DNA of 64,000 nt, taken from the NCBI RefSeq assembly GCF_000317515.1, contig NC_019738.1, forward strand, positions 6,102,001 through 6,166,000. The letters are read 5' to 3'. Shown here one piece after another: positions 17,865-20,624 of the stretch; the stretch's first letter is position 1; each line of letters starts with the position of its first letter. The DNA comes from Allocoleopsis franciscana PCC 7113 (GTDB lineage: Bacteria > Cyanobacteriota > Cyanobacteriia > Cyanobacteriales > Coleofasciculaceae). The notes beneath the pieces are model-generated. The model had not been told where the DNA came from. It saw only the letters and a list, made by a program, of their open reading frames with translations, and did no database searches. Made by a program: the position numbers and the translations under genes.

Positions 17865-20624
17865 TTATTTCTCTGGAAACAGACATTTATCCGAGTCACA
17901 ACCGGCAGGTCCTGCTTCGGCTAATTCGCCTACATTGTAACGACTGAGTGCCAGATGGAAGTCATTGATTTGACGCCGCGTTACGACTTGCTGCATTAGC
18001 TGTTCGTACTGATGACGGTCTATCGGCTCAAAGGGCAAACGCGGGAAGGTTTGATGATCATCAAAGCGTGCGAGCAAAGCCGCAGAGATGTAGCCTTGAT
18101 CATCTCGGATCGCCTCGTAAATCCGAGTCCCCAGAGATTCGATTTCCGCCTCGCGCAGCTCAATGGTAGCGCTGGTGTTGTGTCGAGTATAGAAATTTTG
18201 GACTTGCATGTAAAAGTCCATTTGAGCCAATGCACTAAATTGGCTAATGTCTATTTGATCAGCCCCCGGTAAGTCAGCCCAAGGTACGGCAACCGGAATT
18301 TCCACCAGCCATTCCGAGCAACGGGAATCGAAGGGGTCATTCAACAGGTTTCCATTTTCATCTTTATCGGATTGAGAAGGGATGACATTATATCCGTAAT
18401 CGATACAAGCCAATGCTACAGGGTCATTTTTGCGGAACGTAATCCGTCGGATAAAACGCTGGGCTTTGGGCGGATGCCAACCGGGTGAGGCTCCTGTCAG
18501 GAGAGACTTGGTTCCTGAAGGTTGGACAGTGGTGCAGCGGTTGGGGCGTTTGAGGCCATGTCGATTGCAATAATCCCACACTACTCGATGCACGATTTCT
18601 CGCCAACGAGTCAAGTATTCTTGCTCCTGTAACTTAAACTGAACGCCTGCGGTTGTATCGGGTCGTCCTTCTTGCCACCAACGCAACCAATCGACTCCAA
18701 AGGCGTTCACAAAGAAGTCGAACAAGCCGGTGAAGGATACACCGACGATGGGATCGAGTTCCCTAGACTTCCGGTAGCGTTCCTCAACAAATTGGTGATT
18801 CAGAAGCACGGCGACTGAAAGCGCTCCTGCTGTGAAAGCCTCCTCTTGTTCTTTGTAGTTGAAGGGATCGATTTGGTTAAGATGAATCTCAGCCAAATTG
18901 CAGTGAAAGTTAGAACCAATGATTTCCAGTTTTGTTACCCTAAAGGCTTTTTATCCTTTAGTTCTACAGGTTCGGTTTTCCCTGTAGCTCGGCGTACATT
19001 TTCTTCCTAACAGAGGAAGCCCCACACTCTTGGAGCTACACGAAAAGGTGTAGGAGGTATTACCTCGGATTATAGTCTTTGTAAATTGTATTTTTTGACT
19101 CCTTTTCAATTTACAAAGTTTCACCCTCTACGCTCTACGGTGGTAAAGGCTTTTTAGTTCCTCTACTTACCTCGGTATTAACAGGCTACTAAATAGGTAG
19201 TTATTTCGACTTGTCCGCAGGTTTAAAACCGATGCCTTCAAGATGGAATGTAGAGCAAAAACCTCAAGTTTTTGTCTTTTATTTCGGCTAAAACTACTTT
19301 TGACAACGCTAGTATAGTAGTTTTATTTTACCAAATTTAGCAATCTATATCTCAGCTTCTACCGATTTTGCGGGGTTTTTAAAGTGAGGCAAAGTTACTT
19401 ACCACACGGATTTAAACCAACACGAGCTAACCGATGCTCTATTTCATCAGGAAGTAGCATTTGATAGTGTTCTTGCAACCATTGTTTTGCTCTTCCTTGT
19501 TCGTAAGATTTCAGGAAATCTTTTCTTAGCTCTTGAGTTGGCAGCAAATCGCAATTAGATCTAGCTACTGCTTCGCCCGCCCATTGAATCGCACCTTCAC
19601 CACTGTAATATTGCTTTCGGACTACTTCAATACATTCTTGCTCAGAGGGTTTTCGTGAGAAAATTCGGGTATGGTTTGCCATCCGAAGCGCATCTCGTTC
19701 AGGATCGATACGCCAGTTTCCCTGTTCATCTTGTTGCCAAAGATTTGTCTTGGCATTAGCGCCTAATTCATCGCTGGAATCGAACTGGCGTATTCCTGCA
19801 CTCCTGCGAATATTTCCAGCAACAATGGTGATAGCTGCTTCATCAATTAATAGACAGCACTCAACTGAATTTAATTGCCGCCCTACAGCTTTATTCAAAA
19901 TTGCTGCACCACGCTGATAAAGTTCCGACAACTTAACAGGATTGGCAACCCCTCCAAAGCCTTTGAGAGACTCTCCCGCCGGACGAACATCACTTAAGTC
20001 AATAAAAACTTCTACTGACGCGGAAAATTGCTCATCACTGGATAATTCCAGCAGGGTTTGGTAAGACTTAACCCAACCTTGGCGAGAGTCTCCTACGTTG
20101 ATGTAGACTTGATTTCCCTCAATCTTAACTTCTGTGTATTCGCGGCGTTCTGCAATTGGGGTAGAGCCAATCTCTCCTTGTACATGGACTGTAAGCTGGT
20201 TCCGAATGGGGGGGAGTTGGTTGATGTACTTGGGTTCGAGGACAGCGCCTGTCCCACAGCCCATCATTGCCAGATCCATCATCAAGCCAAAAGCTTGCCA
20301 ATCTACCGCATTTGTGCTAGTGCAATTGTAGGCTCCGGAGAAATTCTCTGGTTTCTCAATCCAGTCGGTACCGCCAACCCACATCCATCGCCCTGAGGGG
20401 AGACTCTTGAGCTGGCTCATCATCCGATAGAGTAGGGTTGCTTCGCTCTGGGTCAGCTTTCCAAGTTTGGTCAATCCCTGGGTGGTGCGATCGCATACTT
20501 CCTGCCACGTCTCCCGTCCCCTTTCTGTCCGACGGCTGTATGTTCTAAAAAATACGGGATTAGCCGCTGGTGCCGTTTCAGGGAACTGCGTCGTCTCGCC
20601 TCTGTGCTCAAGTTCTCGAACCAT
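17865..20624 (-). CDS. nrdJ: B12-dependent ribonucleoside-triphosphate reductase, split by an intron
   Basis: Class II ribonucleotide reductase of the monomeric RTPR type, which makes dNTPs with adenosylcobalamin as radical source. The coding sequence is join of 20624-19401 (408 codons) and 18926-17865 (353 codons), giving 761 residues, close to the ~740 known for RTPR. Exon 1 carries GRWMWVGGTDW and GLMMDLAMMGCGTGAV and ends ...N405-P-C407-G408. Exon 2 resumes E409-IIGSNFHC417NLAEIH. Thus the catalytic Cys and Glu of the NPCGE motif are encoded on different exons. The C-terminal redox pair CDSDKC (751, 756) is intact. Without splicing, exon 1 runs one codon into the intron and stops. Exon 2 could only start at a weak TTG, so function depends on RNA splicing. 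CobB upstream and a possible B12-type transporter are relevant context. Confidence 0.92.
18927..19400 (-). ncRNA. Group I-like self-splicing intron in nrdJ (no ORF)
   Basis: A 474-base insertion whose exact removal restores NPCGEIIGSN. Group I hallmarks: exon 1 ends in T, the intron ends in G (ACTG), and a P1 helix can form between the exon end GUGUGGU and an internal guide GCCUCAC (19390-19384), with a 10-base loop and a U-G wobble at the splice site (one internal mismatch). The rest is highly structured: an 11-bp stem TTTGTAAATTG/CAATTTACAAA, CTACAC/GTGTAG, CTTCCT/AGGAAG, CTACAGG/CCTGTAG and a last CTAAAGG/CCTTTAG. It has no GUGYG start, AY end or reverse-transcriptase gene, which argues against group II. 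I could not place P3 and P7 with certainty. Confidence 0.72.

Follow-up and report, generated by a model that had tools for sequence, protein, structure and literature searches.

A probable self-splicing group I intron, without an endonuclease gene, in the catalytic motif of the only ribonucleotide reductase gene of Allocoleopsis franciscana PCC 7113

Introduction

A group I intron in a cyanobacterial ribonucleotide reductase (RNR) gene is already known, in that the RNR (RIR) gene of Nostoc punctiforme PCC 73102 contains one that is reported to splice (Meng, Zhang and Liu, 2007, J Bacteriol 189:2150, as cited in PMC12702839 and PMC1995217). By its title, that work concerns an intron carrying an insertion sequence, which the intron described here lacks, and the two are set side by side by description, as given in the citing papers. 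Group I introns are also found in phage RNR genes, such as Twort nrdE and SPbeta bnrdE, where they lie near conserved RNR residues and often contain endonucleases (PMC3653736). A third group of related elements are the IStrons, in which a group IA2 intron is fused to an insertion sequence (PMC4227781). That RNR genes can hold several inteins and introns is already on record, judging from the reference list of PMC4649490, and a preference of introns and inteins for conserved target positions is a general pattern (PMC2814812).

Herein we analyze a 474-nt insert in the nrdJ gene of Allocoleopsis franciscana PCC 7113, which lies in a stretch of 64,000 nt referred to as the window (all coordinates are window positions). 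In contrast to the phage introns, its host is a cyanobacterial chromosome and the interrupted gene is the sole RNR gene, encoding a monomeric class II enzyme. It resembles the IStrons at the 3′ end and apparently also in IA2-type features, with additional hairpins located between P7 and P3′ and pairings within domain 9, but IStrons carry a transposase while this intron has none and its same-site relatives carry homing endonucleases. In the open-licence papers searched we found no count of independent elements at the codon junction concerned (NPCG^E), no report of locked synonymous codons at that junction, and none of two endonuclease types in one intron.

Results

The insert occupies 19400-18927 on the minus strand and lies between the codons for Gly408 and Glu409 of nrdJ. 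Excision of exactly these bases, which are those proposed in a first-pass annotation of this DNA, gives a 761-residue frame (...LNPCG|EIIGSNFHCNL...) in which the catalytic motif NPCGE is restored. Exon 1 (19401..20624, minus strand), defined by its open reading frame and the splice junction, encodes codons 1-408 and ends in NPCG with the last nine bases CCG TGT GGT, and exon 2 (17865..18926, minus strand), defined by tblastn and the joined frame, runs from Glu409 (EIIGSNFHC) to the stop codon. The codons for the catalytic residues Cys407 and Glu409 are thus on separate exons, also as annotated earlier, and without splicing translation ends two codons into the intron (NPCGK*). The joined protein belongs to TIGR02505, the monomeric adenosylcobalamin (B12)-dependent ribonucleoside-triphosphate reductase (RTPR; NCBIfam, 789 bits against a cut-off of 340), and the closest named nrdJ genes are from Coleofasciculus (88 and 85% over exon 2).

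The first-pass annotation had seen no other RNR gene in the window, and this now extends to the whole genome (7.97 Mb, 9 contigs, completeness rating 100%), in which there are no matches to PF02867, PF00268 or PF13597 and hence no further RNR family was found. As PF02867 scores NrdJ itself weakly (19 bits), this search covers class I and the large class II enzymes, while further RTPR copies were covered by a separate nrdJ search, which found a single nrdJ. Ribonucleotide reduction is essential, and since the genome contains no other RNR family, the nrdJ transcript would have to be spliced for the cell to live.

The insert was recognized as a group I intron through its relatives rather than by a direct match. 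Rfam at its gathering threshold and at E 10 returned only chance matches in the window (for example, SAM_alpha at 14 bits), so that the earlier suggestion of checking the insert against the Rfam group I model (Intron_gpI, RF00028) gave no match for the window copy at the gathering score or even at E 10. Searching with the intron by blastn revealed conserved blocks in further cyanobacteria, which tblastn placed in nrdJ exactly at codons 408/409, and one of these same-site homologs (locus L013) matches RF00028 (31.5 bits, E 3e-4; gathering score 50) and supplied the register of the structure. In an alignment of 25 introns (A1), the same-site homologs fold as a canonical group I intron with P1, P3-P9.1, P10 and the interleaved P3/P7 pseudoknot, giving 64 pairs in which 98.8% of 1592 cells are paired and 34 of the 64 pairs change on both sides. 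The covariation score is 0.486 compared to 0.152 when shuffled, none of 500 shuffles reached any of the five measures, and pairing falls to 35-46% when partner strands are slid; a single member (L006) served as the template for drawing the structure, the consensus being known at the time, and this favors the drawn over the slid versions but has no bearing on the two-sided changes. In both P3 and P7 all cells are paired and changes occur on both sides, every one of the 25 introns has G-C at the guanosine site and A as the bulged base, and the pair beyond the guanosine-site pair swaps between C-G (13) and G-C (12). The splice-site U-G pair in P1 is likewise invariant (25/25), and every listed core pair is formed in the window copy.

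The elements of the window intron (18927..19400, minus strand; no ORF) can be assigned as follows, in most cases from covariation together with intact pairs in this copy. P1 (19383..19408) pairs exon bases 19408-19401 with an internal guide at 19390-19383. This helix was described in the first-pass annotation with a U-G wobble at the splice site, and that pair (U19401-G19390) stands, but the helix as drawn there must be corrected for a U-U mismatch (19404/19387, at the wobble base of Cys407) and for the loss of the outermost pair (19408/19383). The P10 5′ strand, UUU at 19391..19393, pairs with exon 2 bases 18926-18924 (GAA), and covaries with them in relatives, where CUU is found with GAG. 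The P3 5′ strand (19370..19375) pairs with the 3′ strand at 19025-19020 (19020..19025), and all six pairs change on both sides across relatives. P4 (19365-19360/19177-19172) and P5 (19357-19355/19182-19180) together span 19172..19365, and P6 (19171-19169/19141-19139) and P6a (19166-19160/19149-19143) span 19139..19171. The P7 5′ strand, GAGCGUA at 19129..19135 with A19134 bulged, pairs with UACGCC at 18991..18996, in which G19133-C18992 is the guanosine-site pair. The remaining helices are P8 (19019-19014/19008-19003; 19003..19019) and P9 (18987-18982/18969-18964) and P9.1 (18961-18955/18946-18940), which span 18940..18987. The intron ends in G18927, a terminal G having been noted before.

Between P7 and P3′, a stem designated P7.1a (19118-19107/19088-19077; 19077..19118), of 12 bp in the window copy, is supported by covariation and a second hairpin is predicted in this copy, while no P9.0 or P9.2 was assigned; the extra hairpins would agree with the class IA2 features that PMC4227781 gives for IStron introns. 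The P5 loop is expanded to 172 nt (19183..19354), contains no ORF, and is common only to the intron of another genome of the same genus (L036). This insert was considered as a mobile remnant, which was rejected as there is no second copy in the genome and it folds no better than its shuffles (z -0.95). Taken on the comparative evidence, the insert is a group I intron, apparently of class IA (IA2-like), in keeping with its first description as group I-like. It is the fold itself that defines group I membership, and RF00028 covers this subclass poorly; the case shows that Rfam's general group I model misses this common class. The only other group I match in this genome (61.8 bits) is at G000:C1:2186047-2186295 (L001), where ARAGORN finds no tRNA.

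The same-site intron is widespread but patchy among cyanobacterial nrdJ genes. In a sample of 117 distinct exon-2 sequences, which is biased toward relatives of the window gene, 55 have the same-site intron, 45 do not, 15 have an intein before Cys407 and two have another group I intron. Contiguous NPCGE verifies 39 of the 45 scored as uninterrupted, the remainder being less sure, as locus L118 was first scored in this way and holds an intron. On the exon tree the presence of the intron requires 28 changes, gains and losses being indistinguishable in this count, of which at least 13 are forced by well-supported branches, compared to 39.1 in shuffles (none of 500 being as low). The intron therefore seems to have been inherited in part and to have been gained or lost often. 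Within the same taxonomic family six genomes, including that of the window, carry it, and others are intron-less or have an intein. The same-site intron of L036 is 502 nt and about 85% identical to that of the window, and as dozens of other genomes also have an insertion at the identical site, the assembly error that the first-pass annotation had allowed for is very unlikely.

CCG TGT GGT (CCGTGTGGT) directly precedes the intron in all 54 distinct intron-bearing genes, compared to five of 39 intron-less genes, which otherwise use other synonymous codons (Fisher 2e-20, a value that is overstated given that the genes are related). Both P1 pairing and co-conversion during homing would produce such locked codons. 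Other elements occupy the same junction. In L083 and L086 a different group I intron (RF00028, 75.1 and 81.5 bits) is inserted at the same nucleotide, with the exon sequence CCTTGCGGT and the guide GCCGCC. In L041, L042, L044 and 12 more distinct loci an in-frame intein precedes the catalytic Cys407, a single codon before the intron site, and no locus was seen with both this intein and the intron. In addition, a further in-frame intein-like insertion (VSGDTLLITKD) is present after FHC, near codon 415, in L011, L016, L018, L110, L145, L147, L153 and L155, all of which have the group I intron as well.

A scan of viral contigs for CCGTGTGGT with TTGCCTCAC at most 25 bases downstream gave nine loci, all directly after an in-frame NPCG. 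In family searches exon 1 is RTPR in L184 and L186 and NrdJ_Z in L183, L187, L190 and L191, and the 3′ splice site, resolved at five of the viral loci, precedes Glu in each. The intron of L184 shares 79% identity with one from a cyanobacterium and keeps 57 of 61 pairs, and that of L183 keeps 56 of 61. Those of L186, L190 and L191 match RF00028 and have a different core, yet they have a P1-region segment in common with the cyanobacterial introns that goes beyond the letters of the pattern, although the scan selects for P1 and this similarity is partly built in. The P9.1 consensus GGATAAAAAGCCTYTAGGRTAACA is found in at least 120 viral stretches, and hence the class of the window intron is common in phages. 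On balance we favor the view that the NPCG^E junction is a frequent point of insertion across the RNR families. At least two different classes of group I intron, alike in their P1/guide segment, as well as the inteins located a codon before the junction, would have invaded it in separate events, in the nrdJ genes of cyanobacteria and in the RTPR and NrdJ_Z genes of phages, and the introns would restrict the exon to CCG TGT GGT among the synonymous possibilities.

The window intron contains no ORF and no endonuclease gene, as the first-pass annotation had stated, but its relatives contain two types. A PD-(D/E)XK-like protein (motif KPDF...VEIKG) is encoded in P8 of introns L015/L125, L131, L135, L082/L084 and L112, with a NUMOD3 match just under the cut-off and its Pfam matches below curated cut-offs, and fragments of it are kept in L010, L012 and L118. 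A GIY-YIG protein is encoded in P7.1 of L140 from Anabaena sp. UHCC 0204 (41.1 bits, cut-off 22.6). Active homing by either endonuclease is suggested by these domain matches. Within P7.1a of the window intron, 19107-19080 (19080..19107, minus strand) resembles the 3′ end of the GIY-YIG coding sequence in L140 (Smith-Waterman score 26; 3 of 500 shuffles score as high), and L097 resembles the same end more strongly (0 of 200 shuffles). It is likely but not certain that 19107-19080 is the scar of a lost GIY-YIG gene, given that the match is weak and the stretch doubles as a ribozyme stem. Homologs of both endonucleases are absent from the window's genome at E 1e-8, which makes present trans-mobilization by these enzymes unlikely, and it was rejected. 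The earlier description of the intron as old, immobile or trans-mobilized can therefore be refined to that of an endonuclease-less member of a mobile family.

Discussion

It is very probable that the insert is a self-splicing group I (IA2-like) intron in the only RNR gene of this genome, belonging to a family that spreads by endonuclease homing, and that the window copy has lost its endonuclease gene. After transcription, the ribosome would halt two codons into the intron, at a UAA. The RNA would fold, and a guanosine held at G19133-C18992 in P7 would attack after U19401. The freed exon U would then attack after G18927, joining GGT to GAA and restoring NPCGE. Spread of the family would occur through endonucleases that home to the conserved P-C-G-E codons of the catalytic motif, while the window copy, having lost its endonuclease gene, would now be inherited together with nrdJ.

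The intron could instead have been domesticated, such that regulated splicing gates dNTP supply through the only RNR gene. The location in the sole RNR gene and an intact core kept without an endonuclease both speak for this, but mere survival already demands an intact core, and conservation of the target accounts for the position. Moreover, the presence of the intron is patchy, with many intron-less relatives even within the same family, Rfam recognizes no added sensor domain in the window intron, the P5-loop insert has the ordinary folding noted above, and none of the results supports a regulatory role. Domestication is therefore very improbable. An origin as the ORF-less remnant of an IStron is slightly less probable again. 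The 3′ end of the intron is similar to a stretch of a Clostridioides difficile plasmid, IStron introns are of class IA2 (PMC4227781), and an insertion sequence accompanies the RNR intron reported for N. punctiforme (according to the title cited in PMC1995217). However, there is no transposase gene beside the matched place in C. difficile, the same 3′ consensus in at least 120 viral contigs marks it as a property of the ribozyme class, and the same-site relatives carry homing endonucleases, with no transposase in the intron loci examined. The IStron origin was rejected on the C. difficile context and on the wide occurrence of the 3′ consensus in viral contigs.

Far less credible is a group II intron or its remnant. 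Such introns do occur elsewhere in cyanobacterial nrdJ, as domain V matches to RF00029 lie upstream in the gene in L020 (517-594, 59 bits) and L117 (204-281, 48 bits), but the window region has no group II (domain V) match at E 10, a finding that the first-pass annotation would have counted against a group I intron had it been otherwise, the ends do not fit, and covariation fully supports the group I P3/P7 core and so refutes a group II identity. The chance of an assembly error or decayed pseudogene, as the two separate ORFs annotated mechanically might suggest, is just as negligible, since the same insertion recurs in the same-genus genome and in dozens of further genomes, neither exon is damaged and this genome has no other RNR.

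The preferred reading, an endonuclease-less member of a homing family, makes this an ordinary element, but a clear case of selfish introns exploiting the most constrained codons of an essential gene, in which the NPCGE target cannot drift and imprecise loss of the intron is lethal. The locked CCG TGT GGT allows one to test whether splicing or homing constrains synonymous codons, and the introns at this site, some with a complete endonuclease, some with part of it deleted and some with none, offer together with their intron-less sisters a natural series in which gain, decay and loss can be tested. Among the endonuclease-containing introns, the PD-(D/E)XK frame in the 3′ part of L112, L082 and L125 continues through P7′, P9 and P9.1 (VRGATGNIEPVELEDKKPLG), such that the ribozyme core and the end of the protein overlap. 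The L140 intron looks chimeric, in that its ends are about 95% identical to Nostocaceae introns while its middle, with the GIY-YIG gene and P7.1-P7.2, is nearer to the window intron.
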